Shown here: piece by piece, positions 40,774 to 64,000 of the stretch
How positions within the stretch are numbered: position 1 is the first letter of the stretch
How the letters are laid out: every line of letters begins with the position of its first letter
Assembly: GCF_013868415.1 (NCBI RefSeq)
Contig: NZ_JACEMT010000042.1
Location: 1-64,000 of the forward strand
Direction of reading: 5' to 3'
DNA from: Marinobacterium marinum
GTDB taxonomy: Bacteria; Pseudomonadota; Gammaproteobacteria; Pseudomonadales; Balneatricaceae
Length of the DNA: 64,000 nt
The notes under the pieces: generated by a model
Told to the model about the DNA's origin: nothing
What the model saw: only the letters and a program-made list of their open reading frames with translations
The model's database searches: none
Made by a program: the position numbers and the translations under genes

Positions 40774-42087
40774 ATGAAAATGATAAAAATACCGACCGCA
40801 ATTCCTCTTTTTGATGCCATTGAATATCTGGAAGAGGGGAATGCACGGGTGAATGAATATATCGCGGCGTTGACGGTGCATCGATTAAGTGATGCCGCAG
40901 TAGTATATGAGTATTCTGCTGACTGGCTGCTGGAACAGCGGGGCAGTGAAAACAACTTCAAGACCTACCGGTCAGAGCTGACAACCTTTCTGTACTGGTG
41001 TTTCGAGATCGAACAGGCAAGCCCTCTGGATGTGACGCGGCGCAGCTTGTTCAGGTATGTGGAATTTTGCCGCCAACCGCCTCAGGCGCTGATTGCCTAC
41101 TTCAATACCGCTCAGTTCAAAACACACAAGGAAACGGGAGACCGCTTGCCAAACCCTTGCTGGCGCCCCTTCCTGGGCCGCAAGCAGGACGGTGAAGCCC
41201 TGCCGTATCGTTTAAGTGAGCCCGCCTTACGTACAAAACTGGCCATCCTGTCGGCGTATTACAGCTTCTTGATCGATGAAGAGCTGACCGAACGTAATCC
41301 GGCTCGCCAAATTCTGAAAAGCGGTGTGTTTCATACTGGCGGTCAATTTCACGCCAGCGGAGAAGACAACGAAAACCTCAAAGCTTTCAGTGAGCTGCAA
41401 TGGTCTTACGTCATGACGAGCGCTCGACGGCTGGCGCAGGAGACGCCCGCGCTGCATGAGCGCACACTGTTTCTGGTCAGCCTGATGTATGGCTGCTATT
41501 TGCGTATTTCAGAAGTGTCGGCACGACCGGGATTCGCACCGATTATGGGTCAGTTCCGGCGCGACAGCCAAACCGCCATCTGGAGCTATCATATACCTCG
41601 CAGCAAAGGAGGAAAGCAGCGCAGTGTCGCGGTATCCAAAGCACTGTTAGCGGCCCTCAAGCGTTATCGTCATTACCTGGGACTGAGCGACTTGCCACCT
41701 CCCGGTGATGAAACCCCCTTGTTCATACGCCACCGTCCCGCTGGGCACGGCAGGGATGCCGGCATTCAAAATGCCAATTTGGGCATCCGTCAGATTCGTG
41801 ATGTCCTGGATGCCTTGTTCGAGACTGCGGCATGCGCCGCGGAAAAGGACGGTTTTCTGCAGGATGCAGCTGAAATCAGGCAAATGACGCCACACAGCCT
41901 CAGGCATACCGGCATTACACATGACATCAACCTGAATCAGCGCCCCTTGTCACACGTCCAGGCTGATGCCGGGCATGACAGCATCGACACGACGTCGCGC
42001 TATCTGCATACCGGACGCGTGGAAAGACACGAGTCTGCTGCCGGCAAGCAACTGGATCGCCTTCAGGCTGCAGTGGACGATCAATAG
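40774..42087 (+). CDS. orphan tyrosine recombinase/integrase
   Basis: A 437-aa site-specific recombinase, longer than XerC/XerD (about 300). The catalytic set appears complete: arginine in CYLRISE near residue 247, lysine in PRSKGGKQR, H-x-x-R in TPHSLRHTG near 375, histidine in DAGHDSIDTT, and tyrosine in SRYLHTG. The N-terminal SAM-like core-binding domain is about residues 25-170. The start is uncertain: ATG 40774 has a weak ribosome site; ATG 40780 and GTG 40849 are alternatives. It stands alone and ends 333 bp before the dif site. There is no excisionase or att site that I can see. Confidence 0.85.
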   Translation: MKMIKIPTAIPLFDAIEYLEEGNARVNEYIAALTVHRLSDAAVVYEYSADWLLEQRGSENNFKTYRSELTTFLYWCFEIEQASPLDVTRRSLFRYVEFCRQPPQALIAYFNTAQFKTHKETGDRLPNPCWRPFLGRKQDGEALPYRLSEPALRTKLAILSAYYSFLIDEELTERNPARQILKSGVFHTGGQFHASGEDNENLKAFSELQWSYVMTSARRLAQETPALHERTLFLVSLMYGCYLRISEVSARPGFAPIMGQFRRDSQTAIWSYHIPRSKGGKQRSVAVSKALLAALKRYRHYLGLSDLPPPGDETPLFIRHRPAGHGRDAGIQNANLGIRQIRDVLDALFETAACAAEKDGFLQDAAEIRQMTPHSLRHTGITHDINLNQRPLSHVQADAGHDSIDTTSRYLHTGRVERHESAAGKQLDRLQAAVDDQ

Positions 42088-42154
42088 GAACAGGGCGCGG
42101 AAACAGTGCCGGCAGGCTACGCTTAGCATAACACCGAGGAAGCAGAGGTGGCTT

Positions 42155-42328
42155 ATGTCAGTACGCACGGCGTTATGGATTATCATGCTGGGGAGCCTGC
42201 TGCCGATTACCCGAGTTTTGGCTGAGGCCCCCGAGAGGCAGCGGGTCTATGCAGTCTATTGGCGCGGATGCGAGGAATCATGTCAGGGATTCAAAGACTA
42301 TCTTGCTCGGCTAACCGGATGCCGATAA
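42155..42328 (+). pseudogene. short exported ORF, probable N-terminal remnant of a larger protein
   Basis: ATG 42155 follows an AGAGG site. The 57-aa product has a clear Sec signal peptide (LWIIMLGSLLPITRVLAEA) and then ERQRVYAVYWRGCEESCQGF, which looks like the start of a periplasmic substrate-binding protein that has lost the rest. It stops at 42328. Whether it is a real small secreted protein or a relic cannot be told from sequence alone; I favour a relic beside the terminus. Confidence 0.5.
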
Positions 42329-42420: not shown

Positions 42421-42448
42421 ACTTCGCATAATGTATATTATGTTAAAT
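42421..42448 (+). other. dif: chromosome dimer resolution site dif
   Basis: The 28 bp consist of an XerC arm ACTTCGCATAA, a 6-bp centre TGTATA and an XerD arm TTATGTTAAAT. The last 24 positions match the E. coli dif as I recall it, with differences only at positions 1, 2 and 4. This is the site where XerCD, activated by FtsK, resolves chromosome dimers. Supporting this, GGGNAGGG octamers (KOPS) on the left lie on the plus strand and those on the right lie on the minus strand, so they point here. The rest of the 334-bp gap (42329-42662) holds nothing else that I recognise. Confidence 0.93.
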
Positions 42449-42662
42449 CAAGTATCAGGATATGGTTGAGCAGTCAGCCTATTGTGATATCCATGACCAA
42501 TGTTGGGATTCGTGCCGGCAATGCCGGGTTCCTCCAACGCCCTGGCCGTCTGCTGACTTATCAGCCGATTAAGTCCTCTGAATTTGGTGCGGAGAGTCGC
42601 GAAGATTTGAGTTTCGCGGGCTGAGTGTCATTCCGTGCAAGCTGGTGACGACTGGTACGCGA

Positions 42663-43232
42663 TTAGTGCATGGTCTCGCGTGGGTCTGGTAGCTGCTTCA
42701 GCAGATTGAGCATCTCTGCAGCTGGCCATATGAACTCTCGTTTCTTCATGTCCTTGATACCGCATGGTCGCTCACACAACCTCGCAGACACTGAGTACGG
42801 TCCCAGTTCCATGATGTCGCTGCCATCCCAGGTCAATGCTTCCAGATCCAGCATCATGTTTTTCAATGTGCCTTGTACCGATCGGCTGCACGCCGTGTCG
42901 AAGCTCAGCTCATCGACCAGGCCAACAGCTCGCTCCATCAATTCTGCAGGATAACCCAGCTTGAGCATGGTGTTGCCCAGCATATCGTTGAACCAGAACG
43001 TCAGTGCCTTGAGCTCTTTTTGCGTCACGCCGATCAAGGCCAATGAGAACCGCGTCTGGTCGTGAGTAAACACCAGACACTGACGACGCTGAATCGTGGT
43101 GATATTGGCATGCCATTCACCCAATGCAGATGGGCTTTCCTGAGGCGCATCTGCAATTTCGAAGCCTGCCTTTTTGAGCTTGTCGGCCAACTTCCTGGTA
43201 ACGTGAATTCTCATGTGTTTACCATAATTCAT
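42663..43232 (-). CDS. DUF6933-like protein of unknown function
   Basis: A 189-aa protein that resembles the uncharacterised DUF6933 family: a start like MRIHVTRKLADKLKK, then the WHANITTIQRRQCLVFTHDQ block around residue 40-60. The rest is helical with no known catalytic motif. ATG 43232 has AGGT about 6 bases before it; ATG 43214 gives a more family-like N-terminus. It lies 6 bp behind an hsdR remnant on the same strand and was probably once the last gene of that operon. The function is unknown. Confidence 0.65.
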   Translation of the reverse strand: MNYGKHMRIHVTRKLADKLKKAGFEIADAPQESPSALGEWHANITTIQRRQCLVFTHDQTRFSLALIGVTQKELKALTFWFNDMLGNTMLKLGYPAELMERAVGLVDELSFDTACSRSVQGTLKNMMLDLEALTWDGSDIMELGPYSVSARLCERPCGIKDMKKREFIWPAAEMLNLLKQLPDPRETMH

Positions 43233-43238
43233 TGATAC

Positions 43239-43463
43239 CTATGAGTTTCCCTTGTTCAGCTGCATGTCAAATACCACTCGAGCAAACCCTTGAGCGACCT
43301 GCGGATTACTGAGAATCTGCAGCATCTGGTTCTGGTGTGCTTCCGAGCTTCCCATGACCGCATCATCGACCGCCTGCGGGAAGTCACCGAGAAATGCCTG
43401 CTCAGGTGTGTTGTTCCTGAGTTGGTGAACCACTCGTTCATTCTCCCCTACTTTATCCGCACA
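43239..43463 (-). pseudogene. hsdR: C-terminal remnant of a type I restriction subunit HsdR
   Basis: The frame is open for 74 codons after a stop at 43464-43466. It reads KVGENERVVHQL, then NNTPEQAFLGDFPQAVDDAV and SSEAHQNQMLQILSNPQVAQ, the C-terminal end of HsdR proteins of a class different from the intact HsdR at 50361-53498. The motor and nuclease parts are gone. A GTG at 43433 could start a 64-aa peptide, but a relic is more likely. It shows that an earlier type I system occupied this spot. Confidence 0.75.
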
Positions 43464-43528: not shown

Positions 43529-46500
43529 TTAATACGGTTTGCGCCTTTCAATGCTTCTAGCATTGCAGACCCATTCTTCAAACGTGTTGGCCGTTGACGG
43601 GTGACGACGCCCAATCTTGAACTCACTAAACAACCAGTCCACGGGATCTTCTGGCTTTGCCGCCAATGCTGCACGAGCAACACCTATTTGCTCCTGGTAA
43701 CACAATCCTTTCCAGTCACGCTCCTGACCAAAAGCGTTTAAACCTCGCCACGGGATCTCATCACACACATCCTCCGGCGACAGCCAGACCGTCGCATTCT
43801 CATCTTCGCCATCCCAGAAACCAGCCCAACCGGCTATCACTTCCCGCAGGTGCTGACGCTGCTTGCGGGAACTTCGGTTCAAGTCGTGCTTCTGGGCAAT
43901 ATCAAAGGTAAGCTCGTGAAGCGAAATGCCATTCTTTCGCTGAAGCACGGCACTCGCCAACGCACTCAAGTTGTCCCGGTGTTCCGCTTGGAAGTAGCAC
44001 TCTTTGTCATATTCAGGCAGGTCTGCCAAAACATCGCCATCAACGGATGGCACCACATCGCCAGACGACGGTGGCAAACCAGTACGATCTGGAACGGCCT
44101 CATTCACATCCGGTTGAATACCAAGTTCCGAAGTCTCTTGACGTTGTCTAACCTCCATTCTGCCTGCTACTTTCTGCGGCACATCAACCAATTGAGGTTC
44201 ATACTCTGCGGTCTCGGTCTCGGTTGATTCGAGCATTTCCGCTTCAGCAGACGCGGCACACTCGGCAGCTTGACGGTCTTCCGCCAAGAGGTTTTCCAGA
44301 CACTCGTGCAAGCGCTTCATTGCGTACTCTGGCTCCTGGAAATAGTCGGTCGACCAGAGTCGAAGGATACGCCAACCAAGATTTTCCAAAATGACCTGGC
44401 GAACGCGGTCACGGTCACGTGCCGACGGAGAGCCATGGTAGGTTGCCCCATCACACTCAACACCAGCAAGGTACTCGCCCGGTTTATCCGGATGCACAAT
44501 CCCCAAATCCACTCGGAATTTGGATACCCCAATCTGAGTCTGAACTTTCCAGCCTTTATCACGTAATGTCATAGCGACGGCCTGTTCAAACGGTGAGTCG
44601 AACTGGTCCACACCATAATTGGCCGTACTGAACTCAGCCAGCGCAATAGGGCCACGCTCCGCGAATTCGAGATAGTTTTTCAAATGCTCCACGGCTGTGG
44701 CTCTCGTACGCGACAGATCCACCATGGATGAGTCAAAACTGGTGAATAACAACACTTCGGTTGTTGCACGCGTTACGGCAACATTGAGCCTGCGCTCGCC
44801 TCCCGTCTTGTTCAACGGTCCAAAGTTCATGCTTATGGTGCGGCCACCTGGCTCGGTCGGACCATAGGTCAGTGACAGGATAATAATGTCACGCTCATCG
44901 CCCTGAACAGATTCCAGGTTCTTCACAAACAGCGGATCGTAGTTATCGGCTGCAGTAAAGAAGCGCTCCAGTTCAGGGTTGTTCCGACGTGCTTCATCCA
45001 CCAGGTCTTCAATCATGCGCTGCTGTTGCGAGTTAATGGTCACGATACCCATCGTTCGCACTGGCGCACCCTGCAACATTGCCGTCAGCCGTTTGACGAC
45101 TTCCGTGACCACAGCCTGTGCCTCTATCACATTCGTCTGTCCACGGCCCTTGGCATAGACACCATCAACACGGTGTAGCGTCACCGCACTCTCTTTGGTT
45201 TCCGCAGACGGGAAAGTCCTCAGTTGGTTTTCGTAGTAATGCGAGTTCGAAAATGCGATCAATGTTTCGTGGCGACTGCGGTAGTGACCCATTAAACGCA
45301 GATGAGGCAAGCGTGCAGCCAGCGCCTGATCAAGGATAGACTCCAAGTCACCCTCATCCGAATCCTCCTCTTCCTTACGCCCGAACGTATTGCTGGGCGG
45401 CATCTGTTTAGGGTCACCGACCACGATGACATTCTTGCCACGCGCAATCGCACCAACGGCATCCCAAGTGGTGATCTGCGAGGCCTCGTCAAATACCACA
45501 AGATCGAAGAGTGCAAAATCTGCCGGTAGGAATTGCGCCACCGATAAAGGAGACATCATGAAACAAGGTGTCAGATCCGTCAGTGCCGCTCCCATTTCTT
45601 TGACCAATGCTCTGACCGGCTTGTGGCGGGTTTTTTTGGTGAGTTCACGAGCCAGCACGCCGTATTCCGCCGGCGCATTGGATGCATTACGGTCCGGCAC
45701 AGCACCTGCTGTTTTAGCCAGGATATAATCAGCGGTTGTCTCGGCGACCTCCGCATCAAGCTCCCTGAACATCTCGATGGTTGATTCATGCGAAGCGCCT
45801 GCGAACTGCACCAGTGAAGGACTCTGGTCGATCAATTTCGGAGCCAGCCAAATGCAGAGAGCTGTCATTGCATTATCTTCACATGCCTGAGGGATAATGA
45901 CGCGAGTTTCCAGGGCCTGTGACAAGGGCTCAAGCTGATACTGAGCCGCTTTTTGTTTCGCTCCCAGCCATCGACACCATCGGTTCAAGCGTTCGCTCTG
46001 TTGTTCAATCACTGCGAAGTCTGCTGCGATTGTAGCCAAGTCATCTCCCTGACGGATGGTGACTTTCAACTGCGCCGCTTCTCCCACCAGCTCGGCCAGC
46101 TGCGCTGCATCATCAGCCACCTTCCGAGACAATTTGACCAACGGTGTATTATCGGTGAGGTAGTCTCGCCCTTCCACGAGCACTGAACGCAGCTTGCGCA
46201 ATGGAATGGCAGGATCATCAAAGGTGCTAATGAATGCTTTGAACAGCTCCATCGCTTTGATGCCATTGGCCAGAGTACGCTCTAATTTTTCTACCTCTGA
46301 ATCTACCCCTGCCCAAATACTGCTACACTCAAGCTCAGCCGCACTCTTTTTGAGCGTTTGCAACGTTTCCCGAGCGGCAACTGCCTTTTCCAGAATACTG
46401 AAGTCCGAGATCGTCTCGAGGCCCTGTGCGCACATTTGCTGACGCAAACTCCGACGTTTAAAAAATCCGAACAGGCCTGTTGCGTCATTACGCTGTTGGA

Positions 46501-49477
46501 TCCATCGATCCCAGTCACAGTCCTCCAGCATGTTCCACTTGAGGCCATGCCCAAAATCCCTGATCTGTTCTTGCAACCGAGCCTGTAAGGGTACGCATGC
46601 TTTTAACGCTTTGACACGTGCGAGCCCTCCTTGCTGGAGTGCAAAAACAACATCAAAACGCATCACAAACTCGCACAACTCTGCCAAACGAGCCAACTGC
46701 ACATGCTTATCTGGTGAAATGTGATCCGGGGGAACCCCTAAGGCTTCCAATAACGTCTCTGCATTGGCACGAGTCTGCTTGGTGGTCGCATTGATGCGCT
46801 TTGCAAAGGTAACAAGAGAGGTACGCCATTGGTTGGAAAAATCCCGTTGTGTGACTGACTTGAAATGGTCCGGCTCCAGGTCTTCAATTTCACCAAAGGC
46901 GATCCCCAGTTCCCGCGCAGCCTCCAAATAAGGATCGAGTTCAGCTTCAGTTGTGATGGGTGCCTGCTTCAGGTCTTCAGGCCAATCCAGACGTAACGGA
47001 TGCTCATAGGAGAAACGGACCACCCTTGCCATCGCATCACGGGCTGACAAACCCAGTGCATGCGGGCGATGCAACTCGACAACATAGCTATTCAGCCCGT
47101 GCCTAACCTGTTCCAGTTTCTGAGCTTTGGCGATCCAATCGCTTTGGGATGCTCCTTGACGCCGCGCCCAGGCTCCGCCCAGCTGATCCAGCACCGATTT
47201 CTTGTTGGCCTTGTTGGAGTGCAATTCCAGGCACAGGTGAGCCAGCCCAATCTTCTCCATGCGGCGGTAAACAACCTGGAGTGCTGCCATTTTTTCAGCC
47301 ACAAACAGGACCTTTCGCCCTTGCGCCAGGTTGTGGCAAATGATGTTGGCAATGGTCTCCGACTTGCCTGTTCCGGGCGGCCCTTCCAGAACAAAGTCCT
47401 GAGGATGAGATGAAGCCTCAACCGCCACCATTTGAGAAGAGTCGCAGTTCAGGGGTGCATAGAAATCTTCCGGCGAAATTTTCTCATCCACACGATCATG
47501 TTCAATGAAGCGATGATCCTGATTGAACGCAGCCGTTGGGCGCTCAATCAAGTGTTCCACAAACGGGCTTTTTTTGAGCAGTTCTGTGCGGTCACGCAAG
47601 TCTTTCCACATCAGATACTTGGCAAACGAAAATGAGCCGAGAACAATTTCCTCTACCACAATAAATCCAGGTTGTTCCTGGATAGCCGCACGGACGATAG
47701 TCCAAATGGCCTCGACATCGATACCGGATTCATCTTTAGGGAGATCGTTGCGTAGCTGATCCAGCGTAATATCGTAATCCGCCTGAAGCATCTCGATCAG
47801 CGTCAAGTTGAAGATAGGCTCTTCGTCAGCCAACTGAGAAAGCTTGACCGGTGCTTGTGCGCTGCGACGTTCAAGCTTCACCGGCAACAAGATCAGCGGG
47901 GCACGGAACGACTTGTCACTTTCAGGAGTTTCCTTCCAGCGCAGCATCCCGATTGCCAAAAACAGCGTATTGCTGCCCCCTTCTTCCAGGTCGTTCTTGG
48001 CTTTACGCAGCAGCTCAATCAGCTTGGTTTCGGTTCGTTTTGCCGTCTCATTCACAATGAGATTTTTGTTATCAAGCTGCTGCAGCGCAAATTCCCGATG
48101 CAAATCCTCGCCTGTCGATAACCGAAACGCTTCGGTACTGCGCTCCTCATCCACCAGCGGTGTATCTTCGGCTGAAACAAACCCAAATATTTGATCAGCG
48201 GCGAGCATGTCCTCTAACTTGCCCAAATCTGGACAAAAGAGCTTAAGCGCCGATTGTTTTACATTCAGCAGCGGGTTACGTTTGGTCAGATCCAACAGCT
48301 TTCGCTGCCACATATCAATGCGTGTTTCAGGTGTTTCTTCATACACCCGCTCGTCCCCGCGCACCGGTGGCAGTGGCGGTGGACCATCGATACCGATTGA
48401 CACCACACGCGTAACGGTTTTACCGTCTGTTTCGGGTGCGTTTTTAGGGCGCTCTTCGATGATACCGATGGGTTTGATTCGACGTGCCCGCGCCTGCTTG
48501 ATATCAATCAGCATGACAAAGTCGGATTCTTTATCTTCTTCCAACAAGGTTTTCGCGTGATCAATCGCTTGTTTGAACGTAACGGGTGAATCGTTAGTGA
48601 CCAGCGTTGTCTCAAACATGACAAGGTCAGACGTATCCATGCGCTTCCTCAAATCGATGGGGTCATCGTTGGTTAGCACCGGAAAACATTCATCAATCAA
48701 CCAGAAACCGGCAAACGCATGGGTCTTGGTCAGCGCAACAACCGGGTTCAAGCCCATATTTTCGAGGCAGCTCGCAAACAGGACAGACGTATCAAGGCAC
48801 GCAGCGGTTTTATGCTCCAGGATATCCTTGGCTGGGCGGATGCGCTGCCCCTGTTTTGCCCAACCATTCGGGGGCGACAGGTACATCAAACGTTCGTTGA
48901 ACAACGTGGCCCACAACGCAGCGCCGAACAAGAATGGCCGTTCGCGGGTATTCGACTGGTAACCATCGATAGCACTGTTCTGACCAGCATCACGCAACCC
49001 TTGTGCGACTTTTGCGGTCAACGCTTCAACGGCATGGACATTAGGCTGCACAAAAGCACCCAATAACTCAGCTTGACGAGACTCACCGCCCCAATAATCG
49101 CCTGGCAGCACACTCACATCATAATGAGAAGTCAGCTCCCGCGACTGCCCTTCTGCATCGATATAGGATGCGGCAAACGTCAACTGAACCTGCATCTCTT
49201 CTGTCAGGCCAGTCAGCTTCTCGAACTGGGGCTTTAGTGGTCGTTCTTGCAGTTTTGCAGACTGTCCCGCAGCCAAGCGGTCTATTAACCACTCTTCCGG
49301 TTCAAAGAAGACGGGATCACTGGTGAGCCGTATCCGAATATCGGTGATACTCCCGGAAGGCTCGCCTTCAGTCGCCTCAGGTGCTGAAACCAACGCACGC
49401 TTGAGCAATGGATAGGCGTTCTGTTGCGCCGCCAAAGAGAAGGTGGAAGCCAGTTCGCAATTGAGGTGCAACTCCAT
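43529..49477 (-). CDS. giant DUF4011/SF1 helicase with Vsr-like nuclease and transglutaminase-like N-terminus (Hhe-type defence protein)
   Basis: A 1982-aa single protein. An N-terminal part (about 180-300) looks like a transglutaminase/cysteine-protease core, with Cys in TAACLDTSVLFASC near 228 and His in TKTHAFAGFWL near 253. DUF4011 starts near RIDMWQRKLLDLTKRNPLLN (395). The SF1 helicase has Walker A LEGPPGTGKSETIANII near 700, Walker B VVFDEASQITTWDA near 1330, VVGDPKQMPPSN, and the C-terminal RRLNVAVTRAT. A Vsr/DUF559-type PD-(D/E)xK nuclease follows (FRVDLGIV near 1655, GVECDGATYHG near 1675). The tail (about 1845-1905) is DUF3320-like. The DUF4011-helicase-Vsr order matches a single-gene anti-phage protein reported in 2020 (called hhe, from memory). 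The gene has its own 167-bp upstream gap and is not fused to the neighbouring RM operon. Confidence 0.85.
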   Translation of the reverse strand: MELHLNCELASTFSLAAQQNAYPLLKRALVSAPEATEGEPSGSITDIRIRLTSDPVFFEPEEWLIDRLAAGQSAKLQERPLKPQFEKLTGLTEEMQVQLTFAASYIDAEGQSRELTSHYDVSVLPGDYWGGESRQAELLGAFVQPNVHAVEALTAKVAQGLRDAGQNSAIDGYQSNTRERPFLFGAALWATLFNERLMYLSPPNGWAKQGQRIRPAKDILEHKTAACLDTSVLFASCLENMGLNPVVALTKTHAFAGFWLIDECFPVLTNDDPIDLRKRMDTSDLVMFETTLVTNDSPVTFKQAIDHAKTLLEEDKESDFVMLIDIKQARARRIKPIGIIEERPKNAPETDGKTVTRVVSIGIDGPPPLPPVRGDERVYEETPETRIDMWQRKLLDLTKRNPLLNVKQSALKLFCPDLGKLEDMLAADQIFGFVSAEDTPLVDEERSTEAFRLSTGEDLHREFALQQLDNKNLIVNETAKRTETKLIELLRKAKNDLEEGGSNTLFLAIGMLRWKETPESDKSFRAPLILLPVKLERRSAQAPVKLSQLADEEPIFNLTLIEMLQADYDITLDQLRNDLPKDESGIDVEAIWTIVRAAIQEQPGFIVVEEIVLGSFSFAKYLMWKDLRDRTELLKKSPFVEHLIERPTAAFNQDHRFIEHDRVDEKISPEDFYAPLNCDSSQMVAVEASSHPQDFVLEGPPGTGKSETIANIICHNLAQGRKVLFVAEKMAALQVVYRRMEKIGLAHLCLELHSNKANKKSVLDQLGGAWARRQGASQSDWIAKAQKLEQVRHGLNSYVVELHRPHALGLSARDAMARVVRFSYEHPLRLDWPEDLKQAPITTEAELDPYLEAARELGIAFGEIEDLEPDHFKSVTQRDFSNQWRTSLVTFAKRINATTKQTRANAETLLEALGVPPDHISPDKHVQLARLAELCEFVMRFDVVFALQQGGLARVKALKACVPLQARLQEQIRDFGHGLKWNMLEDCDWDRWIQQRNDATGLFGFFKRRSLRQQMCAQGLETISDFSILEKAVAARETLQTLKKSAAELECSSIWAGVDSEVEKLERTLANGIKAMELFKAFISTFDDPAIPLRKLRSVLVEGRDYLTDNTPLVKLSRKVADDAAQLAELVGEAAQLKVTIRQGDDLATIAADFAVIEQQSERLNRWCRWLGAKQKAAQYQLEPLSQALETRVIIPQACEDNAMTALCIWLAPKLIDQSPSLVQFAGASHESTIEMFRELDAEVAETTADYILAKTAGAVPDRNASNAPAEYGVLARELTKKTRHKPVRALVKEMGAALTDLTPCFMMSPLSVAQFLPADFALFDLVVFDEASQITTWDAVGAIARGKNVIVVGDPKQMPPSNTFGRKEEEDSDEGDLESILDQALAARLPHLRLMGHYRSRHETLIAFSNSHYYENQLRTFPSAETKESAVTLHRVDGVYAKGRGQTNVIEAQAVVTEVVKRLTAMLQGAPVRTMGIVTINSQQQRMIEDLVDEARRNNPELERFFTAADNYDPLFVKNLESVQGDERDIIILSLTYGPTEPGGRTISMNFGPLNKTGGERRLNVAVTRATTEVLLFTSFDSSMVDLSRTRATAVEHLKNYLEFAERGPIALAEFSTANYGVDQFDSPFEQAVAMTLRDKGWKVQTQIGVSKFRVDLGIVHPDKPGEYLAGVECDGATYHGSPSARDRDRVRQVILENLGWRILRLWSTDYFQEPEYAMKRLHECLENLLAEDRQAAECAASAEAEMLESTETETAEYEPQLVDVPQKVAGRMEVRQRQETSELGIQPDVNEAVPDRTGLPPSSGDVVPSVDGDVLADLPEYDKECYFQAEHRDNLSALASAVLQRKNGISLHELTFDIAQKHDLNRSSRKQRQHLREVIAGWAGFWDGEDENATVWLSPEDVCDEIPWRGLNAFGQERDWKGLCYQEQIGVARAALAAKPEDPVDWLFSEFKIGRRHPSTANTFEEWVCNARSIERRKPY

Positions 49478-49644: not shown

Positions 49645-50364
49645 TCATAATTCCAACCCATGCGCATGCTGTCGCAACCAGGCTTTGCACGCTTCGTAAT
49701 CCGGCATCACCCGTTCCACTTCGCGCCAGAAGGCTGCCGAGTGGTCGTGGTGTATCAGGTGGCAGAGTTCATGAATCACCACATAGTCCACCATGCGGTT
49801 GGGGGCCATGAGGATCTTCCAATTGAACTCCAGCACGCCATCGATCGTGCAGCTTCCCCAGCGGGACTTGAAGGTTTTGATGCGTACCCCTGCTGGTTTA
49901 ACACCGACGGCAGACGCATAGCGGTTAACCTTTTCGGCTAACTTCTGTTCTGCCTGGCGTTTGTACCAGCGCACCAGTGCATTGCGGATGACATGGGGCT
50001 TGTTGCCATCTTCAGGCACTTGCACCCGCAAGCGACCCTGCACCAGCTTCACGGGTGCAAAGTGGCCGGTTTCGATCTTCAGGCGGTAGTTACGGCCTAG
50101 ATAGCTAAAGGCTTCGCCCGAAACAAACGCTTTGTCGCTGGCGGGTTGCAGGGACTGGTGCAGTGCGATCTTGTCGCGAATCCATGTGCGCTTGGCTTTC
50201 AGTAGTTGGTCTATCTTTTCCAGCGGTGTATCCGTGGGCACCACAACTGACACCGCACCTTCTTCCACTCGGATATCGGCAGTTTTGCGACGGCTGGTGC
50301 GGACGATCTCGGCAATGAAGCCGTGGCCGTCATGATACTCCGGTGTGTTCACAGCCATGTTCAT
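49645..50364 (-). CDS. YgjP-like (SprT/M48-type) zinc metallopeptidase
   Basis: A 239-aa protein of the YgjP/DUF45 family. The zinc motif is HELCHLIHHDHSAAFWREV near residue 200: HExxH plus a third histidine six residues on. The upstream FKSRWGSCTIDGVLEFNW is the conserved family strand. It starts inside the hsdR stop (ATGA overlap), so it is translated with the restriction subunit. Genes of this family are often found next to type I restriction systems. Its target is unknown; processing or removal of HsdR or HsdS is a guess. Confidence 0.88.
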   Translation of the reverse strand: MNMAVNTPEYHDGHGFIAEIVRTSRRKTADIRVEEGAVSVVVPTDTPLEKIDQLLKAKRTWIRDKIALHQSLQPASDKAFVSGEAFSYLGRNYRLKIETGHFAPVKLVQGRLRVQVPEDGNKPHVIRNALVRWYKRQAEQKLAEKVNRYASAVGVKPAGVRIKTFKSRWGSCTIDGVLEFNWKILMAPNRMVDYVVIHELCHLIHHDHSAAFWREVERVMPDYEACKAWLRQHAHGLEL

Positions 50365-53300
50365 GCAAACTTCGTCTTGGCCAGGTCCATAAAGCGGTCC
50401 TGCACGACAGTGACAATCGCTTTATCCCCAAAAGAACAATCCAGAATGGCGCGTTTGATCTCTTTCTTCATCCCTTTTACTTCATCGGTTTTGCTGAAGA
50501 AGTCCACAATCTGCGTGGCTTCATCGAACATGCCGACAAGAGCCTGGCTGGTGGCTTTGATCTCATCAAATACCGCTTCGCTGACCGTTCCCTCACCCTG
50601 ATGCTGGGTCACCTCGGCCATCAGGATGTTATAGAAAGCGAACTCGGTTTCGTTCAGGCCGATATCCTCTGCCGCTTGCTGATGTTCGGATTCAATGTTG
50701 CTCACCATCTCCAGCAGCAGCTCATACTGCTGATCCCACTTGCCACGGGTCTTTTCAATAATGTCGCGCAGCCGAAGACTTAGGGATTTGTAGTACTCAG
50801 GGTCTTCTTCCAGATTGATGGTGATGTGGTGCTTGATGGCGCTCTCAATCTCGGATGCGCGGGATTCGGGGGATTTGATCTGTTCCACCGTCTCCTTGAA
50901 GTTGGCCGCCATCAGATCCACCGGTGGAATCTTGGGATCAACACCGGTACTGATGATGTGCTCTTCTACCAACTGGCGTACTTTTTCACCGGCATCACGG
51001 ATATTCAGCCCTGGCTCGCGGTAGCGGTTACGCGCAGCATTCTGCACCTTGCCCCAGAACTTCAAATCGGCCACATAGGGCTTGGCCGCCACATCGGGCA
51101 GAATCACGTCCATCTGCTTGGCAAACTGTTTGAAGGCCAGTTCAAACTGCTGGCGCTTTTCTTCGTCTTTCAAGAAAAGCACATAGTCATCAATGTCTTC
51201 GCCTTTCACGCTGGTAAACAGCTGGGCGACACGGGTGTGTGTGGCCTTCAGCTTGGGTATTTCGTCTTTCAGCGTGTAATAGGTGCCTTGGGTATCCTCA
51301 CTGCTGAATAGCTCCAGTGCTTCAGTCAAGTGGTCCGACAAGCCGTAGTAATCCACCACAAAACCGGCTTCCTTGCCCTTGTAGGTACGGTTTACACGGG
51401 CGATGGCCTGCATCAGGGTGTGATCCTTCAGACTGCGGTCGATATACATCACCTGAGCGATGGGGGCATCGAAGCCGGTCAGCAGCATGTCTTTCACGAT
51501 CAAAAAGGCGGTCGGGTCTTCACTCAAGGGCTGAGTGAAACGCTTGATTGCCTGCTTTTGTTTAGTCGGGTCGGTATAGGGTGCGTAAATCGGCGCATCG
51601 TTATGATTACCCGAGATGATCACTTCAGAAGGGGGTGCTCCCAGTTCGTCCAGCGTTTGCTTGTACAAGGTGGCCGCGTAACGGCTACCCACCACGATCA
51701 TCCCTTTAAAGCCGTTGGGCTGGATATGCTCACGGTAGTGTTTTAACAGATCAAGGCAGACCCAACGGATGCGTGCGGGGGCTTCACGTACAGCGCGTTC
51801 AACGCCGTACTTCTTTTTGATCTCGCGCTTTTCGTCATCAGTACAGTCTTTGAAGTACTCTTCAAACAATGCATCCAGTGAATCACCGACCACATCGGTC
51901 TGTACCTGACGGCCTTCGTAGATGATCCGCACGGTTGCCCCATCATCCACCGCTTCGTTGATCTTGTACTCATCGATATAACCACCAAATGCCTGGCCCA
52001 TCTTCTGGGTTTTCAGCAGGGGCGTACCGGTAAAGCCGATCTTGGGTGCGTTGGGCAGTGCGGCATTGATGGTGGCCGCCAGATTGCCGAACTGGGTACG
52101 GTGGGCTTCATCGGCCAACACAATGATCTTGTCGCTGGGGTTCAGGTCGGTGAATGCCTTGTCGGGGTCGCCTTGGGCGCTTTCCGCTTCAGCCTCCTGA
52201 AACTTCTGCACCATGGCGGTGACGATATCAGAGGAGTCCTTGGCCAGCAGTTCCCGCAATTTTGCGACTGATGTGGCGTTGTAGACGGTCTCGTTCTGGG
52301 CATCACGGAAGGTGGCAGATAGCTGGGTATCCAGCTGGGTGCGGTCTGTAACGAACACCAGCTTGTACTGTTGCAACTCTGGGTCTCGGCGCATTTTGAC
52401 CGCCAGCATCACCATAGTCAGGGACTTGCCCGAGCCTTGGGTATGCCACACCACCCCGGACTTCTCCTTGCGGGTCTTACCGGTTTTAAGCTGGTGGATT
52501 ACCTTGTTGACCGCACGGTACTGCTGGTAACGGGCCACCTTCTTGATCAAGCGACCTTCCACCGCCTCATAGACAGTAAAGTTCTGGATCAGATCGAGGA
52601 AGCTGGCTGGGCTGAACATGCCCGCCAGCAATCGCTGCTGTGCAGTAACACCGGATGATCCATTGGCTGCGCCAGAGGCGATGGCCTGAGCATTTGCGAG
52701 GTAAGCCGGTGAAGGCACATCCTGCACTGAGAAACCGCCTTCAGGTGGCTGGGGCTGGCTCGTTGCCAGCCCCAGAATGTCAGCATCGGTGAAAGGATAA
52801 GCATCTTTCCAATCGCCATAATGCTGAGCACTGGAACTGATGGTACCCACCTTGGCCTGATCACGACAGGCGGAAACCATCAGCTGGTTGTACCAGAACA
52901 GCTTCTGTGCCCCCTCTTCCTCTTCGGGGTAACGCAGATTGGCGTAACGACGCAGCTGATTGATCCCCTCGGCAATGGCATCGGCCACATAGGGGGATTT
53001 GCACTCGATCACTGCCAACGGCAGACCGTTCACGAAGCAGACAATATCGGGGATGATGTTCTGGTTCAGCCCCTCCACCTTGAACTGGTTGGTACAGAGG
53101 AACTCGTTGTTTTCAGGGTGTTCGAAATCGATGATTTTGACCGTCTGGCCTTTGCGCCCTTTACCCAGATCCTGCTCCACCGACAGGTAGTTCACCAGCA
53201 TCTGGTAGATGGAATGGTTGTACTCCATCAGCCCCGCATGGTTGGGGTGGGTCAGCTCACGCAGCACCTTGCGCAGGTTTTCATCACTGAGCCAGGGGTT

Positions 53301-53498
53301 CAGCCTGCGCAGCGCCTTTTCCAGCCGCTGTACCAGCACCACATCACGGTAGTAGCCCCGTTCGCCCACGGGTGAGCCATCCACCGGTAAAGCAGGCGCC
53401 AGCCCAGATCCGGCAATATAGGACCAACCCAGTTGCTGGAGCTGCTCAATGGCAGGCTGTTCAACTTTTTCGATTTCATCCTGAAACATAACGTGCAT
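50361..53498 (-). CDS. hsdR: type I restriction enzyme R (motor/nuclease) subunit
   Basis: The 1045-aa subunit translocates DNA and cuts at a distance. The PD-(D/E)xK nuclease lies at the N-terminus, with IIPDIVCFVNGLPLAVIECK near residues 150-170. The SF2 motor has Walker A WHTQGSGKSLTMV near 350, DEAH-type box VLADEAHRTQFGN near 460, GFTGTPLL, and the late motif QAIARVNRTYKGKEAGFVVD near 690. The C-terminal helical part contacts the methylase core. It starts 27 bp after hsdS. ATG 53498 is used; ATG 53489 is an alternative, and neither has a strong ribosome site. Confidence 0.95.
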   Translation of the reverse strand: MHVMFQDEIEKVEQPAIEQLQQLGWSYIAGSGLAPALPVDGSPVGERGYYRDVVLVQRLEKALRRLNPWLSDENLRKVLRELTHPNHAGLMEYNHSIYQMLVNYLSVEQDLGKGRKGQTVKIIDFEHPENNEFLCTNQFKVEGLNQNIIPDIVCFVNGLPLAVIECKSPYVADAIAEGINQLRRYANLRYPEEEEGAQKLFWYNQLMVSACRDQAKVGTISSSAQHYGDWKDAYPFTDADILGLATSQPQPPEGGFSVQDVPSPAYLANAQAIASGAANGSSGVTAQQRLLAGMFSPASFLDLIQNFTVYEAVEGRLIKKVARYQQYRAVNKVIHQLKTGKTRKEKSGVVWHTQGSGKSLTMVMLAVKMRRDPELQQYKLVFVTDRTQLDTQLSATFRDAQNETVYNATSVAKLRELLAKDSSDIVTAMVQKFQEAEAESAQGDPDKAFTDLNPSDKIIVLADEAHRTQFGNLAATINAALPNAPKIGFTGTPLLKTQKMGQAFGGYIDEYKINEAVDDGATVRIIYEGRQVQTDVVGDSLDALFEEYFKDCTDDEKREIKKKYGVERAVREAPARIRWVCLDLLKHYREHIQPNGFKGMIVVGSRYAATLYKQTLDELGAPPSEVIISGNHNDAPIYAPYTDPTKQKQAIKRFTQPLSEDPTAFLIVKDMLLTGFDAPIAQVMYIDRSLKDHTLMQAIARVNRTYKGKEAGFVVDYYGLSDHLTEALELFSSEDTQGTYYTLKDEIPKLKATHTRVAQLFTSVKGEDIDDYVLFLKDEEKRQQFELAFKQFAKQMDVILPDVAAKPYVADLKFWGKVQNAARNRYREPGLNIRDAGEKVRQLVEEHIISTGVDPKIPPVDLMAANFKETVEQIKSPESRASEIESAIKHHITINLEEDPEYYKSLSLRLRDIIEKTRGKWDQQYELLLEMVSNIESEHQQAAEDIGLNETEFAFYNILMAEVTQHQGEGTVSEAVFDEIKATSQALVGMFDEATQIVDFFSKTDEVKGMKKEIKRAILDCSFGDKAIVTVVQDRFMDLAKTKFA

Positions 53499-53525: not shown

Positions 53526-54878
53526 TTAGCCCACCGCTACCTCCTTGTCTTCAACGTTCACTCTGACTTTGCCGGTTAGCAGATCTTGCATTAGGGCTTT
53601 TTTTAGAGAAGTTAAGAGATCTTTCCTTTTCTCGATAACTGCAATTTTTTTGCTAACTGAGTTGATGCAGCAGACTATTTGGTCCTGCTCTTCTTTACTT
53701 GGCAATGGAAGCGGTAGCGTCTTCAAATTGGTTCCGGATAGATTTTTTTGTACCCCACCAGAAGCGAGCATTTGTATCGATTCTTGAGTGCTTGTTGACA
53801 TCATTACACTTCGCACAAACCAAGGATTAACCGAATCCAGAAGGCGAAAACGTATAAGGAATGCAGCGGCTATCATGGGCAATGGCTGTTCTTGAAAGAC
53901 ATCGACTACTCCGCACGTTCCAGAACGGGTTACCAACAAATCACCGTCCCTTAATATATGACTTTGAAACTCATTAAAATTGAGCTGAGCCAGCGGTACT
54001 GTTGAATAATCTATGTCCCAATTTTCATTTATGTCAGTTGTTCGAATACAGCCAAAATTGCCGGTTTCCGAATAAAAATCCGAAGAAAATCTCGGTCCGA
54101 ATGCGCTGTCTTTTGTGATCTCTCCTAATGTACAAACCTCCCAGCTGACAGGAATCCTCCCCACCGGTGAGTCCTTAAACTCCGTATGCGGCTTTCCATC
54201 TGGCCCGATTCCTTTGGTCAGCAGCTCCTGCATCATGCCGGTTTTCAGGTCTTTCAGCTTGTCGATCTGTGCGCGTGTTTTTTCGATCACATCATCGACA
54301 GATGACAGGATGGCGGCGATTTTTTGTTGTTCGGGGAGTGGGGGCTTAGCAAACTGGTACTCAACAACATCACTATTTTTTAAGTTGTTAATTGCACTGC
54401 CAGCCAATGAAAAATCAACTTGCCTCTGGAATTGATCAGAATTGAAAATCTGCTCTACAAATCGAGCACTGACTGATTCCAGTGGACGAAAAATGCTACA
54501 AAAAGCCCCTACCGTTAATCTATTTCCATTAGGGATAACATCAAAAGCAGCAGACTTACCTACTAGTCGCTTACTCCCATTAGACATACATACTGCGATA
54601 TCACCTTCGTTGGCAATTTGCTTATTACTAACTTTTGTCTGATCTACATGCTGTACATCAGAGAGGTATAAGCTACCCGACTGAATATTATTTGATCGAA
54701 GCAGCGTGACGGTATTGTCAGTTTTAGTTGGTGATAAATCCTCGGGCTTATATGAAACGCCACGAATACCCAAGCAAAACTCACTTAATGGAACTACATC
54801 CCACCCTTCAGGAACTGCATTCACCGCTCCAGCGCATCCTGCGCTCGCGGTGTTAGTGAATCCCTTCACGTCACTCAT
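53526..54878 (-). CDS. hsdS: type I restriction enzyme specificity subunit
   Basis: A 450-aa subunit that chooses the DNA target. It has two target-recognition domains: TRD1 about residues 20-190, and TRD2 from about 245 ([20 protein letters not shown]) to 405. Each is followed by a helical spacer: [20 protein letters not shown] near 180, and [20 protein letters not shown] near 390. The TRD stretches are AT-richer than the flanking methylase and restriction genes, as expected for segments exchanged by recombination. The start overlaps the hsdM stop by 8 bp. The recognition sequence cannot be predicted by eye. Confidence 0.93.
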
Positions 54879-56649
54879 AACCCAGCTCCTTCAGGTACCC
54901 CTTCATCAGGCTCTCGGCTTCAGCCACCTGTGTATCCAACTCATTCAGCGACACACGATACTTGTCCCACCAGCGTTCCAGTTGGGTAATCACTTTGGCA
55001 GCCGCTTCCGGCGTCCTGCCTCCCGCGACATTAGCACCTCCCTGTGCGTCATCCGCATGGCCTTCAACGGTTTCGCGGATCGCCTCCTTGGTATCGATAT
55101 GGGATTTAAATTCGAAGTAGTCGTCATCGCGGCGGTTGAACACCAGGCTTACATCGAAGTCTTCCAGAATCTCTTCACGGATATACTCGCTTTCCACTTC
55201 ACGCACGGGGATGCCGCCATGGAGGATGGCACGCACATCGAAGATTTCGGGCGGTGGTGAGGTATCAGCATAGCGGCGGATGTTCAGGTTGTAGTCGTTC
55301 TCTTCGATCTCATCGAGGTGCACCACCTTGGAGTAGCGTTTGATCTCACGGTAATGCTCGAAGGTATCGACGATCTTGCCGATATCCTCGGGGCGCAGCT
55401 TGTTCTGGTTCTTGCCCTCTTCAAACTCCAGCTCGCCGTTGATGAACAGAACTTTGTTGATTCGCTCGGTGGGTTTGTTCTTGTTGATGATTAACAGGCA
55501 AGCGGGAATGCCGGTGCCATAGAAGAGAGCAGATGGCAGGCCGATCACCGCTTCCAGCAGGTCGTCTTCCAGAATGCCCTTGCGAATCGCTTTCTCGCTG
55601 GAGCCACGGAACAGCACACCGTGCGGCATTACCACGCCCATCATGCCTTCAGCATTGAGGCTGGCGATCATGTGCTGCACAAACGCCAAGTCACCCTGAC
55701 CCACAGGTGGTGTGCCATAGGGGAAACGGCCATAGGCATCGTTATCCGCTTCTTCCTTACCCCACTTCTTAAGACTGAACGGCGGGTTGGCCACCACACG
55801 GTCGAAGGTCATCAGCGCACCCTGCTGGGTATGCTGGGGCTCACGCAAGGTATCGCCCTTGCGGATGTCCGCACTGTAAACGCCATGCAGGAACATGTTC
55901 ATCTTGCAGATGGCCCAGGTGTTCAGGTTCATCTCCTGACCGAACAGAGACAGATTGGCGGGGTTTTCGCCATTTCGGGCAAGGTAGTGTCGGGTTTGCA
56001 CCAGCATGCCGCCAGAGCCCGCTGTAGGGTCGTAGATACGCATGCCAGCGTGGGGCTTGAGCAGGGAGATCAACAGCTCGACCACTTCATGCGGGGTATA
56101 GAACTCACCGCCTTTCTTACCTGCGCTGTCGGCAAATTTTTTGATCAGGTATTCGTAGGCCGCACCCAGCAGGTCAGGACGCTCGAAGTCTTCATTACGC
56201 AGGCGGTGCTGGCTGAAGTGGCTGAGCAGGTCGCGCAGCTTTTTGTCAGACAGCTTGTTCTTGATGTTGAAGTCGATGGAGACCAGTACCCCTTCCAGTG
56301 TGGGGTTGTACTCTTCAATGGCCTCGGTGGCCTTGTTCAGCTCGGCACCGATATCGTGCTTGAGGTCTTTCAGTGCTTCCCAGCGTGCAACGGGCGGAAT
56401 GTAGAAGGTTTCATCGTATTCATCTTCATCATTGGCCAAGTCACGGGCCTGCTCTTCACTCTTGCCCTTGTCGAGGTAGTACTGAACCACGCCTTCCTGC
56501 GCCTCTTCAAAGGCATCGGACAGACGCTTGAGGAACATCATGCCGAAGATGTAATCCTTGTACTCGGATGCGTCCATATTCCCGCGCAGGATGTCGGCTG
56601 CGCCCCAGAGGAAGGATTCGAGTTGTTGGAGGGTTATTGTGTGGCTCAT
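54871..56649 (-). CDS. hsdM: type I restriction enzyme methylase subunit
   Basis: A 592-aa N6-adenine methyltransferase. It has an N-terminal HsdM_N helical domain ([20 protein letters not shown]) and the SAM-binding motif [20 protein letters not shown] near 205. The catalytic NPPF is in [16 protein letters not shown] near 288, and [19 protein letters not shown] follows. Hydrophilic C-terminal helices start near 500. It is the first gene of hsdM-hsdS-hsdR-ygjP, all on the minus strand with overlaps or short gaps. A 145-bp gap separates it from the Wadjet genes. Confidence 0.95.
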
Positions 56650-56794: not shown

Positions 56795-57988
56795 TCAGAG
56801 TACTTCCTGATCCAAACAGCACCCCGCCGCAACCAACGGCAATATGTTTTCGTCAAACCATCTATCCCCTGTTGCAGCGATAGGTCTCTGCCCCTGCTTG
56901 CTTGCCATATCGAGTGTATGACCGCGTGACTGTAGCGTATCTATTTTCCCAGACATATAGCCGTTATCTCTGCCCAAAAACTCAAGCATTGTCTGATAAC
57001 CTGGACGCCATGCACGCAAGCCAGGGAACACAGACATCAGTCGCTGTAGAATCTGCGCGCCAGCCCAGTCCATGTCGCCAAAAAAATAAGAAGACACTTT
57101 ATCTGTGGCCAATAAAGCATTGTAAAGCCAGTTAATATTTTTCTCATCATGCGCACCCTCGCTGTCTAGATGCAGAGCAACACCCGCCCTCTCCCGGACC
57201 CTTTCTGCGCCAGCCATGAAGCCTTCCGAGTAGATCAACACCGTCTTTTCCAAACCAAAGAGGGTGCGTTGGTGGGAACCGGCCAGGTCACGGTAGGTGT
57301 CCTTATTCTCAATGAATAGCAGCTGCTCTGGCTCGGCAACCAATGAGACATTCACAATGAGCGGGCGTACCAGGATTGCGCCTGGTAGACCAAAGAGCGC
57401 TTCGAGCCACGCCTCCTTGTCGGTGAGCAGTTTCGAGCGCCCCTGAAAGACACGAGCACTAATTTGATAACAACTCAGCTTCCGGCTTTGCTGTCGCGCT
57501 GCCTCGATAACATCAGGAATCTGGGCAAGCCCGTTTAACCATTCTTCGTACTCCACTCCCCCGGGGCAAAAAGATGGCTGAAGCAGTTCCGGGGCTTTCC
57601 ATACCGGGTAGGCAGCTTTAAGTGCCTCGAAAGCACCCCGGCCAATGCGGGGGTCCGGACGATTTAAGGCCTCACGCAGCGCGCTTTCCTGCTCTGGTAA
57701 CAGAACAATACGGCGGCAACTGCGCCAGGGATCTGCCAAACAGTCAACTCGCGCCTTCATATCGAGATGAATCAGCTGAACCTGCTCCAGTGCCTTGAGC
57801 TGATCCCAAAGATCTTGATCCTGACCTGGCTGTTCCGGGCTTGCTAATCCTTTTATTCGGCTAAGCGGGCCACTGACCTTATTGCTGCGCGCCTCAAAAG
57901 GCTGCTTATCAACCTTATCCAGCAGTGAATGCAGCAGGCGTTGGATGCTTGCGTCAAGGTGAGTAATGTCTTCAGCCCTCGTTGACAT
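56795..57988 (-). CDS. jetD: Wadjet protein JetD (Toprim-like nuclease)
   Basis: A 397-aa protein of the DUF3322/DUF2220 (topo VI-like) family. JetD is the nuclease that cuts small circular DNA once the SMC complex has extruded it. The Toprim-type acidic residues are visible in LLFIENKDTYRDL near 226 and YFFGDMDWAGAQIL near 303. I start at ATG 57988, which has GGGGAGGG shortly upstream and overlaps the jetC stop by 17 bp; a TTG six codons upstream is less likely. It is the last gene of the jetABCD operon. Confidence 0.92.
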   Translation of the reverse strand: MSTRAEDITHLDASIQRLLHSLLDKVDKQPFEARSNKVSGPLSRIKGLASPEQPGQDQDLWDQLKALEQVQLIHLDMKARVDCLADPWRSCRRIVLLPEQESALREALNRPDPRIGRGAFEALKAAYPVWKAPELLQPSFCPGGVEYEEWLNGLAQIPDVIEAARQQSRKLSCYQISARVFQGRSKLLTDKEAWLEALFGLPGAILVRPLIVNVSLVAEPEQLLFIENKDTYRDLAGSHQRTLFGLEKTVLIYSEGFMAGAERVRERAGVALHLDSEGAHDEKNINWLYNALLATDKVSSYFFGDMDWAGAQILQRLMSVFPGLRAWRPGYQTMLEFLGRDNGYMSGKIDTLQSRGHTLDMASKQGQRPIAATGDRWFDENILPLVAAGCCLDQEVL

Positions 57989-61658: not shown

Positions 61659-62355
61659 CCTCCTCTGATGAACGGGTATTTTGTTTTTGGGTCGATTCAG
61701 ATGCGGCTAGGTTCGGCGTCAAGGACTCCCCTGCCTCGACATCTGACAATGCATTGGTGACTGAACTCAGCGAAAAATATTCGACAATTGGGGTGATGCT
61801 CAGCAGGCTCTCGCTATCATGGATATCACCACACTGGTGTATCACTGACATGCGCTTGAGCCGGTCAAAGGACTTGTCTCGTTCGGTCACATTGCCGGCC
61901 ATCTCTCGGCCTACAATCTGCTGATAACGTGTATACACCGTACTGAGCTCGGTCATTGCCAGGCCATCGTCAGTGAGTGTGCCTGCCCGCAAGGTATCTT
62001 CAAAGATCATACGCAGCGCCAACAGAAGCCCTTTTTCCTCCCCTTTCAGGCGTCGCTGTATGTCGGTGCCAAGGTCGATTAACACTTCTTCCTCAGCTCC
62101 AGGAACCGAACTGCCCGGAGGATATGCGATCACGAAACCGCCCTGTTCATTAACGGCGAGCCGGACTCCCATGACTTCGAGATAGTCGGTCACGGATTCC
62201 CTTAACATCAAGAATGCATCGAATAGCTCACGATCACGCTGACTCTTCAAGCGATAAATAACTTGCCGGCCTAGAAGGCGCAAAATGACCTTTCGGAAGG
62301 TTTCGAGGGAAAGACCGCGTCGTTGGGCCGCCGCCTGGATGCTGTCAGTCAACAT
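61639..62355 (-). CDS. jetB: Wadjet protein JetB (MukE-like, DUF4194)
   Basis: A 238-aa KITE-type subunit. Its winged-helix core resembles DUF4194, with RKVILRLLGRQVIYRLKSQR, YLEVMGVRLAVNEQGGFVIA, and EEKGLLLALRMIFEDTLRAG near 110-130. The last 30 residues are polar and probably disordered. It starts 2 bp after the jetA stop. The call rests on position between JetA and JetC as much as on sequence. Confidence 0.9.
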   Translation of the reverse strand: MLTDSIQAAAQRRGLSLETFRKVILRLLGRQVIYRLKSQRDRELFDAFLMLRESVTDYLEVMGVRLAVNEQGGFVIAYPPGSSVPGAEEEVLIDLGTDIQRRLKGEEKGLLLALRMIFEDTLRAGTLTDDGLAMTELSTVYTRYQQIVGREMAGNVTERDKSFDRLKRMSVIHQCGDIHDSESLLSITPIVEYFSLSSVTNALSDVEAGESLTPNLAASESTQKQNTRSSEEDGNVPG

Positions 62356-63848: not shown

Positions 63849-64000
63849 ATGCCGTTCCTTCAATCCGTGAAGATGGGTAAAAGGGATTAGCTCTACCTTT
63901 TCACGCCGGCTTCCTGCCTACTACGTTTCCTTCCGATGTTAGTCTATTCGCCCGTCGGTTGCAGTGAGTAAAACATCAACTGAGCGGGCCTCCTTCATGT

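Follow-up and report, generated by a model that had tools for sequence, protein, structure and literature searches.

The resolution of chromosome dimers by XerC, XerD and FtsK at the dif site is established in other systems, terminus regions are known for acquired DNA, and integrons represent the well-known case of a recombinase gene placed beside a site with interchangeable cargo beyond it. The dif of E. coli K12 is tabulated as GGTGCGCATAATGTATATTATGTTAAAT in PMC2731167, which describes the flanks of dif as highly variable on both sides, and filamentous phages at dif are described in PMC5357621 and PMC11630473. Here, a 64-kb stretch of DNA from a Marinobacterium (hereafter, the window) is compared with these systems, together with its relatives, indicated by genome (G), locus (L) and genus group (g) numbers; a genus group is the group number in the genome collection, and species named Marinobacterium fall in several groups. 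The comparison suggests that, in this family, bounded defence islands probably land and are exchanged repeatedly on the XerD side of dif.

The site itself, ACTTCGCATAATGTATATTATGTTAAAT, has the 28-bp architecture of the proteobacterial type, with two 11-bp arms and a 6-bp centre. The initial annotation had described its XerD arm and central hexamer as those of the E. coli dif, and comparison with the K12 site in the table of PMC2731167 bears this out: the two sites differ solely in the XerC arm, at three bases (1, 2 and 4). At up to 3 mismatches, the site is the only dif-like sequence in the window (none in 100 shuffles), and a genome-wide search for further copies of the 28-mer likewise returned this single match in 3.28 Mb; no better dif was found in this 55-contig assembly, in which the origin is not relatable to dif. 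The 28-mer also matches the pattern RNTKCGCATAATGTATATTATGTTAAAT exactly, a pattern that was not found in PMC2731167. Among the relatives, 49/57 genomes have a dif match, with one site apiece; across the family, matches occur in 100/116 genomes, with two sites in G128, and the remaining 16, some of them incomplete, have none at up to 3 mismatches.

The position of the site agrees with the polarity of the chromosome. GC skew in the window is mostly positive left of dif and mostly negative right of it, and the cumulative G-C count peaks at 782 at 39,500, has dropped to 755 by dif and reaches 194 where the window ends. The skew flip predicted within a few kb of 42.4 kb is seen, with its peak 2.9 kb left of dif. 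The KOPS motif GGGNAGGG occurs 10 times on the plus strand, every time left of dif, and three times on the minus strand, twice right and once left of it, so that 12/13 copies are oriented toward dif and one points the wrong way. In six single-contig relatives, in which the distance could be measured (the assembly under study has 55 contigs), dif and dnaA are separated by 49.3 (G001), 48.1 (G007), 51.3 (G009), 49.6 (G018), 48.3 (G021) and 52% (G025) of the chromosome. The skew and KOPS switch, the single site and this spacing together support the earlier claim that dif fixes the chromosome terminus. A conserved orientation of dif relative to dnaA was considered and discarded: dif lies on the plus strand in G001 and G021 and on the minus strand in G007, G009 and G018, while dnaA is on the plus strand in all five, and therefore the orientation is not conserved. 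XerC (contig C43, 355 bits) and XerD (contig C41, 382 bits) score above their NCBIfam cut-offs, and FtsK is encoded in the window. The reading of the site as dif is supported by its sequence, its uniqueness, the skew and KOPS switch and the presence of the XerC, XerD and FtsK genes; it is almost certainly the chromosomal dif of a Marinobacterium. By the proposed mechanism, XerC and XerD would bind the two arms, FtsK, steered by KOPS, would activate both at division, and crossing-over at the central hexamer would resolve chromosome dimers. As judged from its letters, dif is an ordinary XerC/XerD site, in which nothing departs from the canonical type.

The immediate surroundings are less plain. 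The 334-bp gene-free gap (42329-42662) in which dif had been placed stands only if ORF 41966-42328 is counted as a gene; between the confidently called genes, namely from the recombinase stop at 42087 to the DUF6933 gene that begins at 42663, the gap measures 575 bp. The ORF has no match in Pfam, NCBIfam or PHROG, and its last 57 codons resemble the start of an ABC_sub_bind gene, which codes for 341 aa in M. stanieri. In G005 (L050/L051), an acs homologue reaches 2 bp before dif, without its C-terminal part, and the stop of the next core gene lies just right of dif, resulting in a compact dif site without an island. In G006 and G007 (L053, L054, L055), compared with G003 (L046, L047), dif and the DUF6933 gene are inverted relative to the flanking core genes.

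Right of dif, ten gene models extend from 42,663 to 63,863, all on the minus strand, and nine of them match PADLOC families, the YgjP-like peptidase being the only one without a match. The models include HsdR, HsdS and HsdM together, as in a type I restriction-modification system, and JetA, JetB, JetC and JetD together, as in type I Wadjet. The probable hsdR remnant near the DUF6933 gene is proposed on a homology block with the hsdR region of M. stanieri and on a 102-aa HsdR-family ORF at the same place in G003. The claim that everything right of dif is a defence island holds within the window and fails beyond it, because the contig, which runs on to 67,822, holds a WYL protein and an IS66 transposase past the window. 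This transposase (L031 5321-7114, contig C29) lies near the contig end and is possibly the reason why the assembly breaks there. At the other extremity, near the contig start, a 157-aa open frame at 1546-2013 of the window is a fragment of another integrase. The coordinates of the features are collected in Table 1.

Table 1. Features of the window, in window coordinates, and prophages at dif in relatives, in locus coordinates
Feature	Position	Strand	Remark
FtsK with gamma domain	18065..20602	+	
dif-linked tyrosine recombinase (group A)	40774..42087	+	not XerC or XerD
Putative truncated start of ABC_sub_bind gene	42154..42328	+	57 codons
dif	42421..42448	+	XerC arm 42421-42431, central hexamer 42432-42437, XerD arm 42438-42448
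LE element, dif-proximal island border	42587..42635	+	profile match including 8 leading bases 42579-42635
DUF6933 / PADLOC candidate PDC-S63	42663..43232	-	start probably 43214
Probable hsdR 3'-end remnant	43240..43460 (approximate)	-	
ProA-type anti-phage protein (DUF4011, helicase, nuclease domains)	43529..49477	-	NF058533 1846 bits, cut-off 1500
YgjP-like metallopeptidase	49645..50364	-	
HsdR, type I restriction subunit	50361..53498	-	
HsdS	53526..54878	-	
HsdM	54871..56649	-	
Wadjet JetD	56795..58006	-	
Wadjet JetC	57972..61658	-	
Wadjet JetB	61639..62355	-	
Wadjet JetA	62358..63863	-	
Inovirus-type prophages (Zot-family, Rep_trans), hybrid sites	L048 13593-19966; L054/L055; L132		M. stanieri; G007; IMG/VR contig

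Defence genes recur at the same flank across the family; the initial annotation noted neither this recurrence nor the recombinase gene next to dif. The DUF6933 gene is present in 26/116 family genomes, and in 19 of them it shares a contig with dif, at distances (taken by eye, as were those of JetC) of 0.24-26 kb, always on the XerD side and antiparallel, again as read by eye; several of these 19 genes are broken or partial. The remaining ones are found on other contigs of draft genomes (five) or are weak hits far from dif (two), and G091 carries an additional, degraded copy on the XerC side. A dif-like site, at up to 5 mismatches to the core, is present in the stretch examined at 14 of 42 DUF6933 loci drawn from named genomes and one viral contig; all 14 loci belong, judged by name, to this family, and the loci outside it (Alteromonas, Rheinheimera, Colwellia and others) have no dif-like site in the stretch examined. 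Full-strength JetC1 of Wadjet is found in two of the 116 genomes, the window's own and G076 (about 39 kb from dif), by eye on the XerD side in both.

HsdR shows the same preference: the 100 family genomes with dif have 78 strong hits, of which 16 lie within 10 kb of dif, with 0.37 expected, on counts that are not independent as related genomes share islands. The underlying lists were compiled by hand from strong hits only (about E <= 1e-40), with some split hits merged, and the expectation takes genome sizes rounded or set to 4.0-4.2 Mb and drops the genomes without a dif match. Of these near-dif hits, 15/16 are on the XerD side, 14 of those 15 antiparallel, and outside the family none of the 76 hits in 92 order-level genomes with dif falls within 10 kb, the nearest being at 12.6 kb. 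It might be argued that the terminus merely tolerates foreign DNA and that defence genes gather near dif as anywhere in the terminus, in line with the acquired DNA for which terminus regions are known; this appears very unlikely in view of the one-sidedness of 15/16 near-dif HsdR hits, of their confinement to the family (0/76 outside it) and of the precise ends that the islands share. The presence of a recombinase gene was also considered as the cause of the HsdR hotspot, and a comparison by eye gave no clear link. In the open-access literature searched, no description of a defence-island arrangement at the flank of dif was found, nor was the word DUF6933.

The relatedness of the cargo points to transfer. 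HsdR was compared for 14 of the 15 XerD-side proteins, that of G011 being left out. Ten of them belong to a single lineage with 84-98% identity, spread over six genus groups (g1, g5, g12, g13, g15, g16), and the others are 24-35% identical to the lineage and to one another, except for the G095/G096 pair (95%). Between G100 and G068, HsdR is 97% identical, while the adjacent LuxR regulator is at 61% and the next gene at 51%; between G100 and G031, the corresponding values are 96, 55 and 47%. For the six lineage members with core genes in the stretch compared, cross-genus identity in the LuxR regulator and the next gene spans 44-61%. The HsdR proteins are thus more alike (84-98%) than the adjoining core proteins (44-61%), and by this contrast the islands were transferred rather than inherited: they have passed from one genus group to another, arriving on the same side of dif and nearly always in the same orientation. 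G095 and G100, whose two core proteins are 96 and 99% alike, carry unrelated islands (HsdR 26%).

The islands begin at a short element, termed LE, of about 49 bp, starting with CGTGCGGAGAG. A profile built from the dif flanks of the family, with a threshold set on shuffles, matches 36/51 family genomes and not the outgroup, which is the 52nd genome; the 51 flank-read genomes, out of 100 with dif, were partly selected, many for DUF6933 or HsdR near dif, and since they are related, counts of LE and islands are not counts of independent events. All 36 have a copy on the XerD side that points away from dif, 117-586 bp off, with further copies at +1465 in G068 and +3444 in G104, and in seven of them an additional, inverted copy lies on the XerC side. 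Exceptions are G009, whose XerC flank has oppositely oriented copies at -551 (score 39) and -220 (score 5), and G095, with a weak inverted copy at +4226 (score 15). LE has no match scoring at least 8 elsewhere in 400 kb of the genome under study; in 40 order-level dif flanks, each extending no further than about 170 bp, none scores at least 12. An exact pattern is found in one viral contig, which also holds dif and DUF6933.

Homology between islands starts within 3 bp of LE in 19 listed pairs, 10 of them between genus groups, as for G000 (+166) with G084 (+117), G006 (+221) with G084, and G068 (+1463) with G100 (+290); within-group examples are G000 with G006 (+221) and with G007 (+253), and G095 (+305) with G096 (+263). 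Other pairs do not break at LE: homology starts 38 bp before it in G000-G003, runs from dif itself in G004-G006 and G004-G007, and starts inside the island in G004-G079, G003-G079, G004-G084 and most HsdR pairs. From the opposite direction, the homology of the sister genomes G095 and G100 passes through dif and stops just after LE (+375/+360), as does that of G079-G080 (+503/+502). With breakpoints reaching LE from both directions, LE is therefore a recurrent exchange border and, by the homology breakpoints in relatives, marks the edge of the island nearest to dif.

At the far ends of six islands, homology stops sharply at a shared sequence, ...AATCAGTGTACT(AC), termed RE, followed by unrelated DNA; RE ends in ...AATCAGTGTACTAC. 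Of the 36 LE-bearing flank sets, 11 have the RE 17-mer at up to 3 mismatches, in plus orientation and on the XerD side; the other 25 have none in the stretch examined, which is often short. Chance matches at 3 mismatches occur in G018, G036 and, on the minus strand, G105, and once in 400 kb of the genome under study. The contig of the window has neither RE nor another second border, the window holds no repeat of at least 22 bp at 39500-64000, and the exact RE 17-mer is absent from the viral contigs. Precise ends common to islands with different cargo are a feature of the relatives (LE; RE in RM lineages 1 and 2). LE and RE are different by eye, and a blastn-short search of the six right ends against the dif flanks gave no match.

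Several other explanations of LE were examined. A structured RNA was discarded, as the stretch 42100-43300 matches nothing in Rfam at E <= 1 and three copies do not fold in a consistent way (z -1.0, 0.4, 0.3). The terminator of one gene was discarded too, since LE adjoins genes for DUF6933, for HsdR and for recombinases of both groups, A and B. The gain from a search for motifs to the right of dif was weak (111.8 vs 75-87 for five shuffles), and this line was dropped. LE could instead serve the function of dif, for instance as a replication fork barrier or a terminus-orienting binding site, with the islands merely beyond it, and its uniform direction away from dif on the XerD side in 36/36 bearers, seven of which also have the inverted XerC-side copy, would suit such a role. 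This appears quite unlikely, as LE and DUF6933 remain together in M. lacunae, where dif lies 26 kb off, 15/51 family genomes lack LE in the stretch examined, the XerC-side copy of G009 and the extra copies of G104 (+3444) and G068 (+1465) break the rule, and the homology of the islands begins at LE itself.

A candidate agent of exchange is the product of ORF 40774-42087, a third tyrosine recombinase, in which the positions of R, K, H, R, H and Y align with those of the XerC and XerD of the same genome; it has no match to the model of GmtY of the gamma-mobile-trio at E <= 0.001, and this identity was set aside. Recombinases of this kind give 55 matches in 54 family genomes, 44 of them on the contig of dif and all 44 within 20 kb of it; five more are on other contigs (one being a second match in G024) and six are in genomes without a dif match. 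The dif-linked members of group A are 26 (one a fragment), 21 on the XerC side and on the same strand as dif and five on the XerD side and on the opposite strand, while those of group B are 18, 17 on the XerD side and on the same strand as dif and one on the XerC side. Group A looks to be under purifying selection, with dN/dS of 0.03-0.07 in 3/10 pairs, dS being not computable in the other seven. In the two group B genomes with both ends seen, the gene is either flanked by LE and RE and interrupted by a stop (G059) or placed beyond RE (G031), and several LE-RE islands carry no integrase gene. Owing to the G059 stop and the G031 position, the recombinase is retained as a candidate agent, and the proposal that the dif-linked enzyme acts on LE/RE and drives the exchange is tentative and rather doubtful.

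The main alternative to exchanged elements is homologous swapping of cargo in one old, vertically inherited island through its conserved ends and cargo, with no site-specific enzyme, a scenario that is plausible though somewhat short of even chances. LE (49 bp or little more) and the conserved genes could supply the homology; genomes that lack the recombinase (G006, G007, G026, G095, G096, G100, G101, G110) also have LE and islands; and the stops in group B genes in 8/26 genomes also favour it. RE followed by unrelated DNA in six genomes is not simply explained by swapping inside a fixed island, and the sharp ends at LE in 19 pairs speak against it as well. On the reading preferred here, that of bounded islands landing and exchanging at this flank, the island on the XerD side of the window would be an acquired defence island of a type repeatedly delivered to and exchanged at the XerD flank, and the dif-linked tyrosine recombinases would be the first candidates for the inserting enzyme.

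Inovirus-type prophages occupy the XerC flank in G004 (M. stanieri) and, by shared protein families, in G007, which also has a 6.17-kb tandem element. A near-palindrome (about AGCTAGTGCTTACT) is found on the XerC side of dif in 35/49 family genomes, the near-duplicates G100 and G080 and the outgroup G036 being left out of the motif set, with a log-likelihood of 156.7 vs 45-54 in eight shuffles. It starts at -45 to -50 in 21 genomes and at -57 to -60 in 14, about one helical turn apart; it has no site scoring 8 or more in 40 order-level genomes and is absent from the window (score -1.7). The palindrome is possibly an accessory site of dif, and it looks like the SlmA site. In G007, the palindrome that flanks dif in the relative G006 adjoins the far hybrid site of the prophage element, a shift that illustrates how filamentous phages rewrite the XerC flank. 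In G128, dif and a second site, whose XerC arm is degenerate, enclose about 12.5 kb (L134 10750 to L135 3290), and this insert on the XerD side, which includes a gene for a PM2-like coat protein P2, is a tailless prophage.

These prophages bear on the possibility that dif is an element-borne copy and the island an integrative element exploiting Xer (IMEX) that entered the original dif through XerCD. In relatives, IMEX-like prophages are indeed present at dif, with hybrid sites on its XerC flank (G004, G007) and, on its XerD flank, between dif and the second, degenerate site (G128). For the island of the window, such an origin is disfavoured and highly improbable, the second site lacking at up to 3 mismatches in the whole genome and no half-site being found in the window flank searched, while the far end of the island lies outside the contig; moreover, scanning the relatives for half-sites gave none at the distal ends of their XerD-side islands, and in most listed pairs the homology of the islands begins about 90-560 bp from dif and not at dif.

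By itself, dif only fixes the terminus. Its surroundings suggest, as a testable case, that one of the most position-constrained sites of the chromosome also serves as an address where immunity genes are swapped, almost always to one side of it and seemingly with no dif mimic involved. In its fullest form, the proposal would make dif a docking address for non-Xer elements bounded by LE and RE, with interchangeable defence cargo on the XerD side in one orientation, moved by a resident third tyrosine recombinase, and with filamentous prophages on the XerC side; the combination of all these parts is regarded as speculative and on the doubtful side. If true, the terminus would be a one-sided platform for swapping immunity genes, the dif flanks bounded by LE and RE would be a place to seek defence systems not yet described, and in the resident recombinase, with its low dN and its high or saturated dS, dif would have a new enzyme.

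With integrons, the likeness is one of arrangement only, a recombinase gene by a site and swappable cargo; here, large islands have one LE and one RE, there is no attC-like array, and the 3' ends of the genes face the site. The canonical proteobacterial dif/XerCD system (Carnoy & Roten 2009, PMC2731167) shares with this locus the XerD arm and hexamer, the position near the skew switch and XerC and XerD encoded elsewhere; unlike the canonical flanks in that account, those of the family carry the recurrent LE and the palindrome, although the palindrome is absent from the window. The difSL/XerS and difH/XerH systems, as covered in PMC2731167, also have a tyrosine recombinase gene close to dif, but they are single-recombinase systems with their own dif type, whereas here XerC and XerD are accompanied by a canonical dif and a third recombinase as neighbour. 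IMEX likewise place foreign DNA beside dif, recurrent at one chromosomal address, but they bring a dif mimic, and a second dif-like site remains where they have integrated; for the island of the window, no such site was found. The main text of PMC10121019, on a word search, has neither 'dif site' nor 'terminus'. Lastly, the defence-island hotspots of E. coli described in that text similarly gather varied defence cargo at fixed chromosomal addresses (PMC10121019, main text), while here the address is dif itself, and almost always one side of it.
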